Source of the DNA: Cinnamomum chago | Lineage: Eukaryota; Streptophyta; Magnoliopsida; Laurales; Lauraceae | Direction: 5' to 3' | DNA: 64,000 nt | Assembly: GCA_038049695.1 (NCBI GenBank) | Contig: CP142456.1 | Span: 78,205,422-78,269,421 of the forward strand | In this document: positions 13,163 to 53,216 of the stretch, piece by piece | Position numbering within the stretch: position 1 is the stretch's first letter | Layout of the letters: the number at the start of each line of letters is the position of its first letter | Made by a program: the position numbers and the translations under genes | Notes under the pieces: model-generated | What the model was told of the DNA's origin: nothing | The model's input: the letters and a program-made list of their open reading frames with translations, nothing else | Databases searched by the model: none

Positions 13163-16100
13163 ATGTCGAGAGCTACCGTTGAACACGATTTCTTTGGAAT
13201 CGGGCAGCAGAACATTGCGAAATCTCCTTCAATGAGCCATCTCGAACGAAGAAGATCCTTCAAAGGTACTTTTTATTCCTCCTGTTCTCCGAGTTTTCCG
13301 ATTCTTGATTTCCGATCTCTTCCGTTTCTTTGCTGAGATTTCCGTTTATTTTTTCTGGCCAGGGCTGCAAAATGCGATCTCGAAGCTTGATCCGCAGGTG
13401 CTGAAGACGGTGATAGCTTCACGAGCGGCAAATGCTGGTTTTGAGGGTAAGACAGTGGATAATGGTATGTCGCCGAAACGGGAAGCGGTTTTCCAGCAGA
13501 ACGGAACGGTTTTCGGAGTGAAGAATGTGTTTCCTTCTTCGGCTTTGCCATTTCCGTCTTCTCTGCCAGTTCTGAATCCCGTTCCCAGGTACGATACGTG
13601 CAGATCTGGAGAGAGAGAGATATAGGTAGAGATTTTTGAATTTTTGCTGATTTCTCTTCATTTTCTTTGAACTCTCAGGACTGTTTCAGAAAATCCGTCA
13701 GAAACTGCTCCGTTGACGATCTTTTACAACGGAACGGTGACCGTTTTCGACGTTTCGCGCGATAAGGTACGTTTCTTCCGAGAATATCGGTTGCCTGTTA
13801 CGATATTTTTAAAAAATCTAGTCTAATGATTTTTCGGTTTTGTATTTTGTTGTAGGCGGAGAAAATCATGAAACTGGTGGAAAATGGAAATATCGGAACG
13901 GTGGAAGCTACAGATCCGAAACTCGGATGTAACGAGCGGCAGCTTCTGGAGAAACTTAACGGAGGTTCGTTTTCGGTGTTCCGTTACTTTCTCGCGTTTT
14001 GCATTCTCGGAAACTGCAAAGAAATAGACGGCGTTAGTTTTGAGAATCTGTCCTCGAACGGGAGGTATTGATGTTTTCGTGTCTCTTCGTTGTTTCCTCT
14101 ACAGATCTGCCCATTGCAAGAAAGCATTCGCTGCAGAGGTTTCTGGAAAAGCGCAAGGAGAGGTACTTCCTTCTCCTAGGCGCACTTTAGCATAATCTCT
14201 TTACTGTTCTTTTTCAATCCTTTTCTACTGTGATTTGTTGGTGCGTTTGTGCAATTAGTGGATTCCGGAGGTACTTCCTTCTCCTAGGCGCACTTTAGCA
14301 TAATCTCTTTACTGTTCTTTTTCAATCCTTTTCTACTGTGATTTGTTGGTGCGTTTGTGCAATTAGTGGATTCCGGAGAAAGTGGGGTTTTTTTTTTCGT
14401 GCAAAACACGTTGTTTTGGGGAAATGTAAATTGATTTACCTCGGTGCACAGGGTTTCAATTTTCTATGGGAGTATAGTAATCCTGGGTTTTGGAATCTTG
14501 TTACACAAACAAGTCCTGAAAGTTCCCTCATGGGGGACTAAATAACTGGGTTGCATCTTCTTAGAAGATGTGTTTTGCACTGTGAAAATATTAATCTAAT
14601 GAGATTTGGGTTTCATTTGTTTTGCATTATGGGATTAACATGGGAAAATTGTTTAATTAGATGGTCATTTTCCGAGTTTGTAAGTGCGTATTAAGTGTTT
14701 CGCAGAGTAATTGAAGCTGCTTAACCCAATCTAAAAACTGTTAATAATATAGGAAACATTTTCATGTTGCGAAACTTTATCTTAATATCAAAATTTCCTC
14801 CTTAATGCCTGTTAATGAAGGTTAGTTTTGGAAAATCATTTGTTTTTAGCATAATAAATAAATTACCTATAAATGTGGTTACATGAAATTAAATTATAGG
14901 TAAGTTAAGTGCATCCCAACCTAGAATCTAATATCCTAGGGCCTATTTGATTACAATTATCTAGAAAATTCTTGTTGGGTTGAAAATCTCAAAATCTCTC
15001 AGAGTGATGTTTGATTTTGTGCCATTAGAACTCTTAAATTGCTAACATATAAAAATGTCCATTTCAAATGTTAGAGTGTAAAGCATTTTATTCTCTTTCT
15101 CAGTTATTCTAGAGAAGCAAATCCTAATATCCTAATATTCTTTCAAATTGTTGTTCTTAAATCAAGTCTTGCTCTGCACAGGAGCTGGGGCGGGCAGGCC
15201 CAAAGAAATGCCTTCGATAATATCTAAAAAATCGATCTTTTTATTTAATCTCTTCACTTGACCATATACTGTACCATACAAATGAAATTTTGGATCCATT
15301 GCCCTGGACATATACTCTGAAAAAATATCTGAAAGGCAAACTTGAGAAATTCAGTCGAGATTTAGGCATCCGTGGAGATTGAATGTTCTAAATTTATGTC
15401 TCATACCCATGATTTAGTACAAATCATAGCTAAAACCTAGACCATATTAACAGCTCCTTTTTCTTTAAATTTGATTTCTTTTCCCAATTTATTATATATT
15501 TACTTGCAATGCTTGTTAAAATTGAACATTTACTATTATTGATGTGGGTTTTATAAGCTGTTTTAGTAATATTATATAATTCTATTAGGTGCAGAGATGC
15601 ATGAATCATAGAGACAAATGGCACATAGTTATACGAGTTTACAACTTTGCACATAGGGAGTCCAAGTAGGTGTTCTTGTCTCTCATTGTACTCCATCTTC
15701 TTAATAAAAAATTTTGCAAGTCATCTGTAGTTTCCTACCCCCCGGAAATATCAGAGGACAGTGGTTCATTACCTACCCAGAGCTGCCTAATCACCTTTCT
15801 AATTAACAGTTCTGACCCATTAATTCCATTGTGTTGTTTTGGGTCGATCACATGGGTCAAACTGATCTGTGCCTCGAAAACTAATTATAATTAAAGGCCG
15901 GGACCTTACATAGTTGATGTGCTGAACACCCTGAGATTCGGACTATGGAATCTAGGTTTGGTTTGGGTTACTGTAGCCTGGGTTTAGGTGGTATCTTTAC
16001 ATGAATATGACCGAGACTCTTTGATTCTGTAAAACGTTTAATTTTCTCAAAAGAACACGTGATTTCATTAAAGGAGTTTGCACAACCACTGGTTTTTTTA

Positions 16101-16361
16101 GGTTTGCTTTTACTTTGATATTAGTTTAATGCTAGAAGCAATTGGAATGTGCACTCTAGTCTCTAAAATGGTGCTGGTAGGCCGGACCGAGTCTCTTTTT
16201 TAATACTAACATCAGCTGTCTACTTTTCTTGACTTTGTATGGTTTGTTTTTATTAACTCCAAAGCCTTCGTTTAAAACGTTGCAGGTTGACTTCCTATTC
16301 TCCTTTTGCCAGTTATTCCAAAGAGGCCAACGACAAGGTGATGGAGTCGGTCCGGGCATGA
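13163..16361 (+). CDS. JAZ10: JAZ10/TIFY9-type jasmonate ZIM-domain repressor, six exons
   Basis: Exons 13163-13265, 13363-13588, 13679-13766, 13856-13964, 14105-14162 and 16286-16361 join in frame with GT-AG introns to give 219 residues. Residues 26-54 (HLERRRSFKGLQNAISKLDP and following) match the N-terminal region that in Arabidopsis JAZ10 forms the cryptic MYC-interaction domain. The ZIM motif TIFYNG is at 123-128 (exon 3 into 4), and the Jas motif DLPIARKHSLQRFLEKRKER runs through 176-195, continuing LTSYSPF in exon 6. JAZ proteins bind MYC factors and the NINJA-TOPLESS corepressor in the nucleus and are degraded through COI1 when jasmonoyl-isoleucine is present. The degron reads LPIARK where LPIARR is usual. 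The Jas intron is long (2123 bp). Retaining it adds YFLLLGAL then a stop at 14188-14190. Retaining intron 4 stops at 14069-14071, before Jas. Both would resemble known stabilised JAZ10 isoforms. Confidence 0.95.
14163..14378 (+). repeat. 108-bp tandem duplication copying the Jas-intron 5' splice site
   Basis: Positions 14163-14270 and 14271-14378 appear identical as read, each starting GTACTTCCTTCTCCTAGG and ending GATTCCGGAG. The first copy begins exactly at the exon 5 donor (GAG|GTACTT at 14162/14163). The second copy recreates the same GAG|GTACTT context at 14270/14271. Use of the second donor would keep 108 nt, which carry the in-frame stop at 14188-14190. Confidence 0.9.
16056..16061. 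promoter_or_regulatory. G-box (CACGTG) inside the Jas intron
   Basis: A perfect CACGTG, the core bound by MYC2-type factors, lies 225 bp before the last exon. JAZ genes are commonly induced by MYC factors, but one hexamer in an intron is weak evidence of function. Confidence 0.25.
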
Positions 16362-17360
16362 GGAAGCTGTTAAAAAACTTCACTCTTTTCAGTCTAACAT
16401 TGACCTCGTGATTTAGAGTAGACTGCCCAATCAAGCACTCTTTGAAATTTTTTTTGCCGTTTATAGGATAGATTATCTATCTGAAACTGCCTAGTTTATT
16501 GATATTATTATTATTATAGTTAAGAAAGTTGTGGTGGTTGCATAGATTGTTGGTGTATACAATCTCATTTGGATCTTAATATGATTTCAGTTATGTAATC
16601 TCTCTTTTGATGGCAAGTCATTTCTTCCATGTAAATGTTACGTTCTTTTTAATCTCCACCCATGGATTAAAATTTGGACAGCGTGGTTTGATCTCTCCAG
16701 TATATGGTCTGGTCCTTTTGAGTTTGGGACACTGCCACAAAGTGCTATGATCTCTGAAATGTTCATGGTTTGGGGGTTCTTCAACTTGTGTTGTGATCTA
16801 AAAGAATCATTTGGAGGAGCCTTTGCTTGTTAGTTGTTACCATTCAATGGTTTCTTTGATGTTTGAGAGGGAGAACCTTGGAAATTTGATGAAACTATGC
16901 ACTTCGCATGGCACAATGTAGTTAGTTGGTATGTTTTGATTACTGATATTGTGACCCATCAGCCATTGATGGGACTTCTGGATTGATGGAAATGTGTACT
17001 CGATAGACAATCAATGGTTGGAAAGTTTAAGTGTATGTTAATCAACAATTTGGTCTCCAGACAACATAATTAATTTGTCGGAAAGGTAGATAGCCTATCA
17101 GTTTGTGGTTCCACTTGGATGCTTCAATTGTACTTCTATGAGAACAGTTGGTTTTTACGTTGGTAATAGCTTTACAGTTGAATCCAGAAGGGCGGCGGGG
17201 TCGGGGTTGCCCACAGATCTGCCCTTAGACCTGGGATAAAACCCTGAGGTGATGCAATATCACTGAACGCATCATGTGCGATTCTAAGGCCGTGGGATAT
17301 CGTGTGGCACACATCATTTTGTGCGATATCTTATGGCTTTGTGATATCATACAATTATTG
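16362..17360. other. JAZ 3' flank; no further gene
   Basis: Presumed 3' untranslated region followed by intergenic DNA. I could not fix a polyadenylation site. No coding exons recognised. Confidence 0.4.
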
Positions 17361-17513
17361 TACGAACAGTTCTTCAGAAATTATATGTTTCTACTGTTGT
17401 AGGGCAAATATCAAATGTAAGATCAGTCGTATAGTACGAACAATTCTTCAGAAATTATATGTTTTTACTATTGTAGGGCAAATATCAGATGTAAGAAAGA
17501 ACAGTCGTTTGGT
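17361..17513. repeat. 74-bp tandem duplication
   Basis: TACGAACAGTTCTTCAGAAA at 17361 recurs as TACGAACAATTCTTCAGAAA at 17435, followed in both by TTATATGTTT.TACT.TTGTAGG and GCAAATATCA.ATGTAAGA. There are two units with a few substitutions. Confidence 0.85.
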
Positions 17514-27205: not shown

Positions 27206-27348
27206 AGAATAAGATATAAAACTTCCTTTTAGATTATTTTGTACATTGAAGGAGGGGGTGGACATGTAATTTGCTCATTAGATTGAGGATTCCTCTTGAA
27301 GGAAAAGAGAAAAGAAAGTGCAACTATTTGATTAGGCTTCCCTATTAT

Positions 27349-28119
27349 TGAGGAGTGGGCTCCACCCAAAGGTGAATATTGAAAAGTATTTCTACCACCT
27401 TTACTAATGCCTTGAGGCTTTGTTAGTAATAGTTAGTTAAAGAAATTCAGGATGATATTAGAGACACCTGGTCGTGACTTCAAATCACAGGAGAAACGAC
27501 TCAGCGCAAAAAAAAAAAAAAAAAAGCGTGTCGCCAAAAGTGCGTCGGCCGGATTCAACCGGAGGGATAGTAGTTTTGAGGAGTGTGCTCCACCCAAAGG
27601 GGAATATTGAAAAATATTTCTGCTGCCTCTACTAATGCCTTGAGGTTTTGGTAGCAATGATTAGGTAAAGAAATTCAAGATGGTATCAGAGACAACTGGT
27701 TGTGAGTTTGAATCCTAGGAGGAATAACTCAGTGCAAAAAAAATAAAAAAATAAAAAAAATTTGCGTGTTGCCAAAAGTGCGCCGGCCAGGTTCCATCCG
27801 AGGGGGAGTTTTTGAGTGTGCTCCACCTAAAGGGGAATATTGAAAAGTATTTATGCTACCTCTACTAATGCCTTGAGGTTTTGGTAGCAATGATTAACTA
27901 AAGAAATTCAAAATGGTCTCAGAGATAACCGGTTGTGAGTTCGAATCCTAGGAGGAATAACTCTACGCAAAATAAAATAAAAAAGGTTACGTGCTGCCAA
28001 AAGTGCGCCGGCCAGGTTCCACCCAAGGGGGAGTTTTTGAGGAGTGGGTATCACTCAAAGGGGAATATTGAAAAGTATTTCTGCTGCCTCTACTAATACC
28101 TTGATGTTTTGGTAGCAAT
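27349..28119 (+). mobile_element. tandem TRIM array: four LTRs, three internal units
   Basis: LTRs of about 100 bp start TGAGGAGTG and end AAAGAAATTCA (TG...CA): 27349-27449, 27577-27677, 27813-27910 and a truncated fourth from 28038. Each complete LTR is followed after 3 bases by a primer-binding site matching the 3' end of initiator tRNA-Met: TGGTATCAGAGA at 27681, diverged as TGATATTAGAGA at 27453 and TGGTCTCAGAGA at 27914. Each internal unit of about 127-135 bp ends in a purine tract (GAGGGGGAG at 27800, AAGGGGGAG at 28025) directly before the next LTR. There is no coding sequence, so this is a terminal-repeat retrotransposon in miniature. The fourth LTR loses similarity after GGTAGCAATT, near 28119. 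Confidence 0.85.
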
Positions 28120-29989: not shown

Positions 29990-31067
29990 CTAATAGGTGC
30001 TAGCAACAGCTGCGTTCTTTGATCTATTTGCAGACAAGACCAGAAGTAGAAAGAAGACAGCAAAAGAGGCATATGAGCAGACAATCGAAGCCCCAGCTTT
30101 GTCACAAAACTTGCCAACTTGGTCACAGATAGGAGTCCATCCTGAATGGGAATTCCCCTTCTTACCTACATACCCAATTGCAGTTGCAGCTGAGGATGCT
30201 GCGAGCACCAAACCCATCATCATCTGCATATCAAACATAAACCCATCATCATCATCATGATCATCATTTGATAATTAGAATCCCCCACATATAGTCCTAG
30301 GAGCTCCAATTAGGTCCAATCCCAATACCTATGGCCTAAAACTCATACTGATCAGACCATCACACCCATCCATCATCTGAATGATCACTTGACCTTTTGG
30401 TCTACTTTTTGACTAGAATTGTCAGGTCAATCTGTTTTTCAGCATTTAGCACATTTGTGGGAGGACCCCAAGAGATGGATTGCTCATATCTCAATTAAAT
30501 GTTCCACGGCCATGTGTTTTCACTAGAACTACTCACTTAGCTGCGGTTAAATCTTATATCTCAATTGCTTTAACTGTAGGATGAACTGATGAAGTACATA
30601 TATAACAAAGAGTGTATAAAAGAGAATGGAATCACTCACCAGATCAAACAAGAACATGAAGAACGAGCTCCTTGAATTTGAGCTTTTGGAATAGACAATG
30701 ATAACAAAAGGCACAGAAAGCAGAGCATAGAAACTTGCAACAGCATTTCCAATAACAAGAAAACTGCTTGCCAAAAATAAAAGAAAAGAAAACATTCCAT
30801 CAGTCTTATAGAGGAGAGAAATCGAAGTCTCTCCAATGTGATTTTTATGGCTTATATCATCTCTTACCTGAATGAAGGAGATTGGGAGAATTTAGCTGTG
30901 ATGTAGAGTGTGTACACCTCCACTGTCTGCTTGTTTGTAGCCATGATTACTGTGGCAATCAAAGAAGTCCCAAAAGCCATTAATCTGAGCATAACTTGTA
31001 CTGAAACATATGTTTTTGAAGCTTTCTCAGATGGGTCACTCTCTATTTTTCTCTTTGTGGTCTCCAT
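29990..31067 (-). CDS. CASPL1: CASP-like protein, CASPL1 group (copy A)
   Basis: Three exons on the minus strand (31067-30868, 30763-30640, 30223-29990) join at GT-AG sites into 185 residues. Four hydrophobic segments fall at about 25-44, 68-91, 100-128 and 152-174. These carry the CASP family signatures: an arginine in the first segment (R28 in LRLMAF) and an aspartate in the third (D107 in FLFDL). The second outer loop has GW.PIC (C141) and C148. CASPL proteins are plasma-membrane relatives of the Casparian-strip scaffold proteins and form four-span membrane domains, but most have no known individual role. The product lacks the ESLP outer-loop signature of true CASPs. The intron positions (phases 2 and 0) match copies B and C. 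It diverges head to head from copy B, which is its closest relative here. Confidence 0.92.
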
Positions 31068-37670: not shown

Positions 37671-38024
37671 TTACAGATGGAGAGAGAGGTCGAGGTTGAC
37701 ATGGTCAGGGCTGGAGGGCGGTTCGGTGGATGGACCCACATGGGAATGGGCCCTGTAGGGGTCGAGCCAATGAGGGTGCAGTGTGAGGTGTGGCTCCGGA
37801 CTCGGTCCGAGTTTGGAAGTGTCCAACTTGGCCGCCTGGTAGGCGGCTCGGCGAGCCTCTGCTCTTTCCTTCTTGTGGGCGTTTTGGTGTCCTCCGAGTG
37901 CTTGGGAGGTGTAGAACCTCCTTGAACAGTAGTGGCAAGGGAAGGTGCGGGCCACTGTTCCCGATGCTCCTGCTGCTGCTTCGGAAGGTGTTTTCATGAA
38001 GGCATAGAAACCGGAGTCCTCCAT
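37671..38024 (-). CDS. single C2H2 zinc-finger EAR-repressor protein (KNUCKLES/LATE-like)
   Basis: An intronless 117-residue protein. One plant EPF-type finger occupies about residues 28-50: C30 and C33, QALGGH at 41-46, and H46 and H50 as zinc ligands. A basic stretch KKERAEARR follows. The C-terminus reads NLDLSLHL (110-117), an LxLxL EAR motif that recruits TOPLESS-type corepressors. Proteins of this class are nuclear transcriptional repressors, often in flower, trichome or meristem development. Size, single finger and terminal EAR resemble KNUCKLES or LATE FLOWERING, but flanking similarity is too short to pick one. A TATA-like TATATAAAA lies about 50 bp before the ATG (38073-38081). It sits between CASP-like copies A and B with no evident functional link to them. 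Confidence 0.93.
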
Positions 38025-38378
38025 TTCAGACTTGAGAGAGAGAGATGTGGGAGTGGGAGGGGTTTGGATGGGGTTTTATATGGGAATGTGAGGAGTAGAG
38101 AAATATGATTGGTTGAGGTGGAAAGGACAAAAATGACTATCAGTGTATATGTTGTTTATATGTGATTGGGTGTTGGGCTGGTTTCTGTTGTCCTTTTATT
38201 TTTATATTTATCTAGTGATTGGAAGAGAAAATATTTATCTCATATGTGCAGTAGGTCATTTATCTAGTTATATTGATGAGGTTTGAAAAAGAGTAAGGAC
38301 ATCAGACCTGTGCATCTGTTTCATTTAATGTGTTTGGGGGAATCTTGTGTAGAACTACTATTTTGTAATGTGCAATGT

Positions 38379-38541
38379 GCATGTAGTCTATCATGAATGG
38401 AGATGCACTATAATATCAACCATTGATTGCATTGCATGTAGTCTATATATCATGAATGGAGATGCACTATAATATCAACCATTGATTGCATTGCATGTAG
38501 TCTATATATCATGAATGGAGATGCACTATAATATCAACCAT
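38379..38541. repeat. 59-bp minisatellite, three units
   Basis: Units start GCATGTAGTCTAT at 38379, 38434 and 38493 and contain CATGAATGGAGATGCACTAT and AATATCAACCATTG. The first unit lacks a 4-bp TATA insert. It lies about 350 bp upstream of the zinc-finger ATG, so inside its possible promoter region. Confidence 0.9.
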
Positions 38542-39839
38542 TGCAAACTGTTAAAGGCCTGTCAGTTTAAAATGAATGTCTTGGAAGGCTTAAGTTTTGT
38601 GGTCACTGTGCCTAATCCATACTAACTTCGTAGAATCCTTTTGTGGTACTAACACACCATTATAGGGCTTATCATTCTTAAAGAATGGAATAGAGCAAGC
38701 TGACCTAGAAGGATGCAAATTATAAAGGGTGGGCATGTGGGCGTAGGGGTTAGGATTAGAAAATCTTCTTAATACCAACTTAATTATGTGTGACAAATAG
38801 AAACATCCATCGTCTATATTTAGCAGTACCAAGTCGACTAAAATCTAGCTTTCAGACAAAGTTGAATGCATGTCAAAATTTGCAGAGTCAATTGAGGATT
38901 CTTGGGATGGGTGCAAAGGGTTAGCTTGATAAAAGGGAGGGCCAGATGGGCCCCACAGTCCATGCTGTGCCTTTTACCCATATCTCATCACTTAAAATCT
39001 GTCAAAATTAGGATTTGGATCTTTGAAATATTCTGATTTTTCTTTTCTTGGTCAAACCACAATATTGAAATTTAATTTCTAAGTTGTTTGTGTCACTGTT
39101 TTTATTTTTCTTTGATTAAACCACAATAAAAGCAAAGGCTATAATCGTCTGCATGTGAGATTGAGCGACAGAAAGAAGCAACTGCTTTATTTAACTTCAG
39201 TTTAGCTCTTGAAGTGTCCCCGGCCCCCAGTCCTCTCTTTCTTGCTTTAGTTCTTTGGAGTTCCTGTCATCAACACATTATCATGGGCAAAAGTAGAAAT
39301 AACTACATGATCAAACATTCGGCTTCTTTAGCCAAAAGAACAAAAAAAACATTCAACTTGTATCAGTGTTTGTCCCCAGAATCTCAAGAGGATCGGAGAT
39401 TGTCCATCGATTTATGAGAAATTAACATAAATGAACATTGCTGACCATCAGGTCAAGCAATAAGATGGACATTTTTAGATGGAGAGAAGATTTCCTTTGT
39501 ACAAACCAAGGATCAACTTCACAAGGCCCCATGTAGGGGTTTCTGATAGTGCGATGATCACAATGACCTCCAAGATGTAATATTTCTTGCCAAATGAATA
39601 ACCTAGCAAGACCTCTTATAGATGGACCCAGGATCTTGGGGCCACCCAATCACACTGTATTTTGATGTTTAAATCTTTATTATTATTTCTTGCAATTAAG
39701 GTTCCAATCTTCAATATTGTGTTAATACTACATCCATGGTGAGGCCCACTCCCAAATGATTGAGCAAGTATCTTCATGTGTCCCAGTGGTGTAAAGGGTA
39801 ATTTAGGAATTTGGTAAAATAGCAAGTGGCAATATTGGA
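38542..39839. other. intergenic, no gene recognised
   Basis: No supported coding exon or transposon end. Confidence 0.4.
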
Positions 39840-45182: not shown

Positions 45183-46269
45183 ATGGAAACCACCCAGAAC
45201 AAAATAGAGAGAAACCCATCTCAGGAAACTTATTCAAAAACATTTTTTTTAGTTCAAGTCGTGCTGAGATTAATGGCTTTTGTGGCTTCTTTGATTGCCA
45301 CAGTAGTGATGGCTACAAACAAGCAGACACTGGAGGTGTACACATTCCAAATCCAAGCTAAATTCTCCAACTCTCCTTCATTCATGTAAGATCAGGCATA
45401 AAAACCCACACTAGAATTATGTGTTATATTTCTTTTCTTCCAGATTGATTGACTTTTTTTTTTTTTTTTTTAATTTCCTGGTAAGCAGTTTCCTTGTCAT
45501 TGGAAATGCACTCGCAAGTTTCTATGCTCTGCTTTCGGTGCCATTCGTTTTTGTTGTGGATTCCAAAAGCTCAACTTCAAGGAGCTCTTTCTTCATTTTC
45601 TTACTTGATCTGGTGAGTGGTTTCATTCCTTTTGATACACTTTGTTTCCAAAGGTACTTCACTCTAGAGTTAGATAATGGACTTTGATAAAGCAATTGAG
45701 ATATACCCCCAAAAAAAAGCCAAAGTAGTTGAGAAAAGATTCGCTCTTTCCTAGATGGGTTGTTCTAGTGAAAGCACATGGTTGTGGTACACTTACTTTG
45801 AGATATGAGCAATCCATCTGTAGGGGTCTTCCCACAAATGTGGCAAACTTTGAAAATTATATTAACCTGACAATCTAGGCCACAATTAGACCAAAAGGTC
45901 AAGTGATCATCTAGATGATGAATGGGTTGTGATGGCCTGATCAGTATGAGTTTGGACCTAATTGGAGCTTCTAGCTGGGCTATTATATATTTGTGGAGGT
46001 CAGATGATGATGATGGGTTTATGTTTGATATTCAGATGATTATGGCCTTGGTGTTGGCAGCATCCTCAGCTGCAACTGCAATTGGGTATGTGGGTAAGAA
46101 GGGGAATTCCCATACAGGATGGACTCCTATCTGTGACCAAGTTGGCAAGTTTTGTGACAAAGCTGGGGCTTCAATTGTCTGCTCATATGCCTCTTTTGTT
46201 CTCTTCTTCCTACTCCTGGTCTTGTCTGCAAATAGATCAAAGAACACAACTGCTGCTTGTAGCTATTAG
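45183..46269 (+). CDS. CASPL1: CASP-like protein, CASPL1 group (copy B)
   Basis: Exons 45183-45385, 45489-45612 and 46036-46269 join into 186 residues with the same intron phases as copy A. It shares nearly all of exon 3 with A (for example AATAIGYVGKKGNSH and CDQVGKFCDKAGASIVCSYA), as well as the membrane arginine R29 and aspartate D108. The N-terminus METTQNKIERNPSQE differs by small changes and one added residue. Four membrane segments are expected with both ends in the cytosol, as in the CASP family. Intron 2 is conserved with A over long stretches (TGATCAGTATGAGTTT, AGATATGAGCAATCCATCT), which indicates a fairly recent duplication. Its individual function is unknown; a plasma-membrane role is inferred from the family. 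Confidence 0.93.
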
Positions 46270-51860: not shown

Positions 51861-53216
51861 ATGGCAACCAATCTAACTGGACCAGGGACTAGCCCATCTC
51901 AGACAGCCAAGAAATCATCTGGACCAGGTCACATTTTATTGCAGTTGGTGCTCAGAACTGTGGCTGTTGCATCTTCTTTGGCTGCCTCGATAGTCATGGC
52001 CACAAACAAGCAAAGTTTTGATTTTGTGGGTATCTTTCATACGGTAGCTGACTACAAAACATCTCCTTGTTTTCGGTAAGAAAAGAAAAAAGAATTCATG
52101 GAAAGCTCATTGAATTAGAGAAATATTCTACTACAAATCCATGAAATCTTTTCTTCTTAATGCATGCAGTTTCCTTGTGGCTGGGACTGCTGCTGCAGGC
52201 GTGTACTCTCTGATTTCACTGCCTTTTGTTTTTTTCCTCCATTTCCAAGGATCAAAGCCAAAGAAATCTTTTTTCATGCACTTGTTTGATCTGGTGAGTG
52301 ATTTGAATTGGAATTACTTTCTAATTATTATTTTTACCTTTCTTTCATTTTTTTTTATTTGTTATCATTTAGTGATGAATGGAACCTTCTAATAATTTTT
52401 ATGATTTTGCATCTGACAAGACAATGAAACGAAAAAGCTGTAGGTAACCAATTTATTTTTCCTTGTAAGATTGATATCTTCAGCATATTAAATATACACA
52501 TATCATTTATGATACATAAATATATGACAATGATGATCTTCATATGAATGGATTCTACTCTTTCACTCTTTTGATGCTGCTATGGATTTGAAAATAGATG
52601 AAGTAAAATTAACTATATATGTTTCTAATTTTTTTATTTTTCATTTATATAAGAAAAAATAAAAATTCTACAATTCCCAATATAATTCACATGGAATTCA
52701 GTTCATCCCCTTGACTGAATTGCAAGATGATTTCGATTTTCAAAACAATGCATATAGCATTGAATGGGACTTGCAAAAAACGTAGTGTGTTAGACACATT
52801 AGAGATGTGGACAGTTCGTTTGGTGGGTCAAGCACAGATGGGTCAAATTCTGAAATTTCACATTGACCAGACAATTCTAGGCCATCCATTGTAGGATAAT
52901 TCTCAGGATAGAGATGGATTAGTGTATGATATGTAGCAATAAGAGAGATTGAATGGAACTGACGTTTGTTGTATTGTTATGAGACTACTGACCCGTGGGA
53001 TGGTTTTGTGTTTGTTGTGTGCAGATGATAATGAGTTTAGTGCTGGCAGCAACTTCAGCTGCAACTGGAGTTGCTTATGTGGGTAAGAAGGGGAATACTG
53101 TTGCAGGCTGGTCTCCTATATGCGGATATGTTTCCCAGTTTTGTAATAAAACCGAGCTTGCTCTTCTGTTATCTTATGTCTCTCTATTAATCCTTTTCTT
53201 AATTTTAGTGGTGTAA
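51861..53216 (+). CDS. CASPL1: CASP-like protein, CASPL1 group (copy C)
   Basis: Exons 51861-52075, 52170-52293 and 53025-53216 join into 176 residues. Intron phases (2, 0) and the 124-nt middle exon are identical to copies A and B. Family marks are conserved: R32 in LRTVAV, D112 in HLFDL, MATNKQ after the first membrane segment, and YVGKKGN..AGWSPIC in the second outer loop. The N-terminus is longer and the C-terminus shorter, ending in LILVV without the polar tail of A and B. The sequence is clearly more diverged, so C split off before the A-B duplication. It lies 5.6 kb downstream of B in the same orientation, as expected of an older tandem duplicate. Function is unknown beyond family membership. 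Confidence 0.92.

Follow-up and report, generated by a model that had tools for sequence, protein, structure and literature searches.

A perfect 108-bp tandem duplication copies the Jas-intron donor of a putative JAZ10/TIFY9-type gene in Cinnamomum chago

Introduction

The splice forms of JAZ10 bear on how strongly plants damp their jasmonate responses. The closest described system is Arabidopsis JAZ10 (TIFY9), with the splice forms JAZ10.1, JAZ10.3, and JAZ10.4. For this gene, the available part of a review (PMC10095807) reports an N-terminal cryptic MYC-interaction domain, the use of alternative 5' sites of the last and the second-last intron to make JAZ10.3 and JAZ10.4, and COI1 binding by JAZ10.3 that is only partly impaired. 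Retention has been described for the JAZ Jas intron (PMC13140700, in the passages available), which divides the Jas motif into parts of 20 and 7 residues (PMC7450174, available section). In rubber tree, alternative splicing of five JAZ genes was confirmed by amplicon sequencing, and one of them, HbJAZ_29511, groups with AtJAZ10 (available portion of PMC4274682). An initial annotation of the DNA analysed here had attributed Arabidopsis JAZ10.3 to intron retention; this accords with the passages of PMC13140700, but not with those of the review, which name an alternative donor. If the review's attribution holds, the route proposed for the present locus is one already known.

Here we describe a gene in a 64,000-base window, meaning the whole stretch of Cinnamomum chago DNA that was analysed. 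The gene resembles Arabidopsis JAZ10 in its type, in its intron-split Jas motif, and in a reading frame that an alternative donor or retention would truncate, whereas it differs in that its extra donor duplicates the normal one without a mismatch and in that the motif ends in PF, not PY. A natural copy of the deciding donor would offer a ready-made test of competition between identical donors in a plant, and also of whether structural variation tunes a hormone brake. If the upstream donor dominates, as expected, the locus would be a simple case of a duplication hidden by splicing.

Results and Discussion

Structure and assignment of the gene

The gene model, together with Pfam and PDB matches, defines a coding region at 13163–16361 on the forward strand, with six coding exons (13163–13265, 13363–13588, 13679–13766, 13856–13964, 14105–14162, and 16286–16361) that encode 219 amino acids, and with GT...AG boundaries at all five introns. 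Exon 5 (14105–14162, 58 nt) carries the N-terminal part of the Jas motif and ends at the first of two donors, donor 1 (GAG|GTACTT). It is flanked by an intron of 140 nt upstream and by the Jas intron downstream (14163–16285), which measures 2123 nt from donor 1 and, by subtraction of 108, 2015 nt from donor 2. The coding part of exon 6 (16286–16361, forward strand like the preceding features) completes the Jas motif (LTSYSPF) and encodes the C-terminus, with the stop codon at 16359–16361. The tify (ZIM) domain PF06200 scored 48.0 bits against a cut-off of 27, and Jas_motif PF09425 scored 49.6 bits against a cut-off of 22.1, covering positions 1–25 of the 26 in the model. The gene model and both Pfam matches thus agree with the earlier description of a JAZ gene with an intron-split Jas motif. 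The full-length motif closes in SPF (16286–16307), where the canonical ending is PY; the TIFY 9 peptide 5t0q ends in PY.

Seven distinct solved sequences in the PDB match the protein at E ≤ 1. The best whole-chain match is TIFY 10A (8t2i), with 50.5 bits over two stretches of a long chain, and two TIFY 9 sequences, represented in the PDB as peptides only, rank next. Comparison of the Jas stretch alone gave about 33 bits (33.1–33.2) with the TIFY 9 peptide 5t0q versus 22.8 bits with TIFY 10A, and residues 17–54 match the TIFY 9 chain 5t0f_B (30.9 bits, E = 2.1e-6), which we take to be the cryptic MYC-interaction region of JAZ10. On the strength of these peptide matches, we call the gene putatively JAZ10/TIFY9-type.

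We searched the genome (1.061 Gb, 14 contigs) with residues 1–60 at E ≤ 10, and both matches among the best-scored candidates fall inside this gene; no second JAZ10-type copy was found among these candidates. Nor did we obtain a paralogue whose donor is present once and which could have served as an ancestral comparator: the other genomic DNA match, on contig 1, comprises 36 bases of Jas exon plus donor and belongs to a different JAZ type.

The tandem duplication at the Jas-intron donor

Tandem Repeats Finder reported an array at 14160–14378 with a period of 108, a 100% match, no indels, and a score of 438. Repeat search and script comparison showed that copy 1 (14160–14267) and copy 2 (14268–14375), each of 108 bp on the forward strand, are identical, and the head-to-tail duplication of the exon 5 donor that had been noted at first sight is therefore borne out by all three approaches. 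Copy 1 carries donor 1 and, at 14188–14190, the TAG that closes the retained reading frame; copy 2 carries donor 2. The donor GAG|GTACTT is accordingly present twice, at the junctions 14162|14163 and 14270|14271. A third GAG (14376–14378, forward strand), a 3-bp microhomology, ends the array and is followed by AAAG instead of GT, so that the donors number two, not three.

The duplication is confirmed as a feature of the assembly. That the second copy is an assembly artefact seems very improbable to us, even with 108 perfectly identical bases in a single assembly: a 108-bp unit lies well within one sequencing read, N is absent from the 64,000-base window, and other parts of the assembly contain short perfect arrays of this sort, though the same fault could underlie those too. 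Genome searches returned one full copy of the locus.

Head-to-tail duplications of 10–1000 bp are known to arise from double-strand break repair (a rice study cited in the available part of PMC7407515; PMC8355091, available part), and the present one is alike in arrangement and size. For its origin we infer break repair or slippage, since the 3-bp microhomology is also compatible with the latter. The reading that we hold to be probable is that such an event copied the start of the Jas intron, the last intron of the only JAZ10-type gene that our genome searches recovered, and that the resulting duplication is recent and nearly neutral, with donor 1 dominant and donor 2 at most minor.

Frequency and age of such duplications

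To place this duplication, we counted near-perfect tandem arrays (period ≥25, match ≥98%). Seven were found in 195,009 bases outside the window, namely one in the 110,000 bases sampled from 11 arbitrary places across 9 of the 14 contigs and six in 85,009 bases around nine other JAZ genes; the window itself holds two in its 64,000 bases. Extrapolation from the seven gives about 38,000 arrays genome-wide (15,000 to 78,000, Poisson limits) from a JAZ-rich sample; an estimate based solely on the 11 arbitrary places comes to about one quarter as many. With a mean unit of 64 bp, one unit from each array covers about 0.23% of the genome. Given on the order of 100,000 donors, some tens to hundreds would be expected to have been copied in this manner without selection. 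Other tandem arrays in the window lie at 17356–17496, 27348–28119, and 38389–38543, and include a perfect 59-bp unit repeated 2.6 times and a 228-bp unit repeated 3.4 times.

The genome yielded 14 Jas matches, of which two are exons of the JAZ10-type gene, nine are comparison loci, and three (L008, L013, and L014) were left out because their Jas motif reads through without an intron; the window's own locus (L026) was excluded from every count. A Tandem Repeats Finder array at the donor (period ≥25, score ≥50) was present at none of the nine other JAZ loci with a Jas intron; at these loci, donor duplication was not seen as a habit of JAZ genes in general. When the DNA of 14160–14450 was compared with the genome at E ≤ 10, with very common words skipped, no other place was found among the best-scored candidates. 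The lack of another match for the repeat unit speaks against a repeated element, and a mobile element or wider repeat is unsupported, as the segment matches solely its own locus among those candidates. In the open-licence literature, we found no printed report of a donor duplication in a JAZ gene.

Zero differences over 108 sites correspond to upper age bounds of 0.9 to 9.3 million years at assumed substitution rates of 1.5e-8 to 1.5e-9 per site and year. Gene conversion between the copies would void these bounds; if the copies have not been gene-converted, the duplication appears to be young.

Choice between the two donors

Both Jas donors match the consensus at six of nine positions and pair with the U1 end at −5.7 kcal/mol, a rough energy computed with an 11-base U1 end lacking modified bases. 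They share ranks 5 and 6 in a scoring of the 130 GTs between 14100 and 16285, where the GT at 14899 ranks best. Among the donors of the nine other Jas introns in the genome, seven are stronger and two have energies of −5.6 kcal/mol. At such a weak donor, small changes could shift donor use.

The two donors had been described as equivalent. This holds for the doubled GAG|GTACTT core, but the equality is limited to 3 bases upstream and 108 bases downstream of the junctions (−3 to +108), and the T context differs. The T content is 0.18 upstream and 0.44 downstream of donor 1, and 0.44 on both sides of donor 2; donor 1 thus marks the transition from exon to T-rich sequence, whereas donor 2 does not. 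A rise in T content across the site aids donor choice in plants. Plant introns are also often recognised across the intron, a mode that would favour donor 2.

Competition between donors has been studied in human cells (PMC9225289, to which the following statements refer as far as its available sections go). Among donors of near-equal strength, the upstream one was preferred in 60% of all competition events, a preference that holds in the long-long class of flanking introns and is stronger in the short-long class; in strict intron-definition events, the downstream donor was preferred. Before the filter for equal strength, about 60% of events favoured the downstream donor, as did most events within each of the four intron classes, and an early experiment that also showed downstream preference is cited in the introduction of that paper. 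When two identical strong donors competed in exon-defined minigenes, the upstream donor was used exclusively. When the identical donors were weak, the S and M constructs still preferred the upstream one, and the L and XL constructs mostly skipped the exon. Our reading of the 140/2123-nt intron pair as short-long is an assignment made independently of the length cut-offs of the paper, and the origin of the rule in human cells counts against applying its preference here. On balance, we expect donor 1 to dominate. Splicing would then proceed mainly via the upstream, original donor and yield the full Jas motif, and the downstream copy would be at most a minor donor.

Predicted products of the two donors

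Translation of the 219-residue model agrees with the earlier statement that the upstream donor gives the full Jas motif. The statement that the downstream donor keeps 108 nt and runs into an in-frame stop after YFLLLGAL was also reproduced: donor 2 gives 203 amino acids ending in KERYFLLLGAL, with the stop at 14188–14190. In this product, the Jas_motif match drops to model positions 1–19 and 42.1 bits, whereas the N-terminal region matching 5t0f is retained in the full-length and the truncated forms. Because the stop lies in copy 1, retention of the whole intron gives a protein end identical to that of the donor-2 protein. Plain retention therefore encodes the donor-2 protein, so that what the duplication contributes is not a new protein but, possibly, a spliced transcript encoding one that retention would yield anyway. 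The proposed second route to a JAZ10.3-like product thus survives as far as the truncated frame is concerned, but not as the source of a new product.

The fate of the transcripts bears on how much protein could result. The stop of the donor-2 transcript precedes the last junction by 80 nt. The decay criteria quoted in the available section of PMC7450174 are a stop more than 55 nt before a junction and a 3'UTR of over 350 nt. By the first of these, the donor-2 transcript is predicted to be decay-prone. The retained transcript has no junction past the stop, but its long 3' part exceeds 350 nt, so that decay may not set donor 2 apart; nonsense-mediated decay may act on both transcripts.

These results bear on the proposal that donor 2 is substantially used and provides a structural second route to a stabilised, jasmonate-insensitive repressor like JAZ10.3. 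Several lines of evidence point that way: an identical donor with 108 identical downstream bases, a reading frame truncated as in JAZ10.3, the alternative donor in the last intron described for Arabidopsis JAZ10.3 (PMC10095807, available part), the alternative splicing of five rubber-tree JAZ genes including HbJAZ_29511 (PMC4274682, available part), and the downstream preference in the unfiltered human data (PMC9225289, available part). Against it stand the T context, which favours donor 1, and the upstream preference among near-equal donors in that same study, as well as the predicted decay from a stop 80 nt ahead of the last junction and the fact that retention already makes the same product. 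In two other rubber-tree JAZ genes, moreover, the spliced form exceeded the unspliced one by a factor of at least 500 (available part of PMC4274682), so truncated forms can be rare. Substantial use of donor 2 is rather unlikely in our estimation, and in our judgement a functional role of donor 2 is less likely than near neutrality. If the nearly neutral reading is right, donor-2 transcripts would encode the retention protein, a form that resembles JAZ10.3 in its truncation within the Jas motif; they would be likely targets of nonsense-mediated decay, and the effect of the duplication would be a quantitative nudge at most.

Two further candidate splicing options were noted in this region. Skipping of exon 5 (13964 joined to 16286) gives a frame that ends in LNGG without a Jas motif, JAZ10.4-like in content. 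A candidate intronic donor, TAG|GTAAGT at 14899–14905, matches the consensus at eight of nine positions (−10.2 kcal/mol); as the stop lies upstream of it, its use would yield the same truncated protein, and the intron had alternative donor candidates even without the duplication.

An AG|GT at the copy junction

The junction between the copies creates an AG|GT (14269–14272, forward strand), a candidate recursive or dual-specific splice site. The 108-nt segment 14163–14270 begins with GT and finishes with AG, and its removal would restore donor use at 14271. Enumeration also identified a candidate AG acceptor in copy 1 (14257–14258, forward strand), which together with donor 2 frames a candidate microexon of 12 nt (14259–14270) that is in frame and reads KRKESGFRRLTSYSPF. 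Microexons of about 12 nt are known in plants (PMC8831610, available part). Published work describes how new introns can arise when segments bearing AGGT are tandemly duplicated (available part of PMC4974935), and human tandem repeats are enriched for introns spliced at dual-use AGGT sites (available part of PMC10809524).

Comparison with these systems revealed both likenesses and differences, within the sections of the sources available. As in the Rogers model and the potato RdRp gene (PMC4974935), a short stretch is tandemly duplicated, with AG|GT where the copies meet and a GT...AG segment as the result, and the potato duplication crosses an exon-intron boundary, as here. The duplicated segment in the Rogers model is exonic, whereas only 3 of the 108 bases are exonic here, which would place the new intron inside an existing one. 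The dual-specific and recursive sites (PMC10809524) are alike in that the AG|GT belongs to a tandem repeat and the repeat unit equals a possible intron length, here 108; dual-specific sites have been described in human and recursive ones in human, fly, and mouse, whereas the present one is a candidate site.

These features raise the possibility of an intron-birth intermediate, with either two-step removal via the AG|GT at 14270 or a 12-nt microexon within the Jas motif from the AG at 14258. The position of the AG|GT exactly at the copy junction, the GT...AG form of 14163–14270, the preserved frame of the microexon, and the two published precedents are consistent with it. The acceptors, however, argue against it: the pyrimidine fraction before 14270 is 0.47 versus 0.59–0.82 at the acceptors of the five modelled introns, and the AG at 14258 falls below a pyrimidine cut-off of 0.65, whereas the AGs at 14190 and 14298 reach 0.71. 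Owing to this weak tract and the sub-threshold AG, we rate the two-step and microexon readings low, and such an intermediate is highly doubtful. The combined scheme, in which the AG|GT at 14270 serves as both acceptor and donor for two-step removal of the Jas intron, the AG at 14258 occasionally inserts four residues into the Jas motif, and donor 2 gives a truncated repressor, strikes us as a long shot. If true, one structural change would lead to three repressor forms, and an intron-birth intermediate would lie inside the hormone-sensing degron of a JAZ protein.

Neighboring genes in the window

The window also contains three pieces of CASP-like (Casparian strip membrane domain) genes, at 29993–30891 (reverse strand), 45415–46266 (forward strand), and 52114–52389 (forward strand). 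Two of the five open reading frames scanned (29993–30274 and 45922–46266) pass the Pfam cut-off and three fall below it. The genes at 29993–30891 and 45415–46266 are oppositely oriented and appear similar on visual inspection. An open reading frame at 37674–38075 (reverse strand) encodes one C2H2 zinc finger, presumably of the plant QALGGH type, and a C-terminal LDLSLHL, which we take to be an EAR-like motif.
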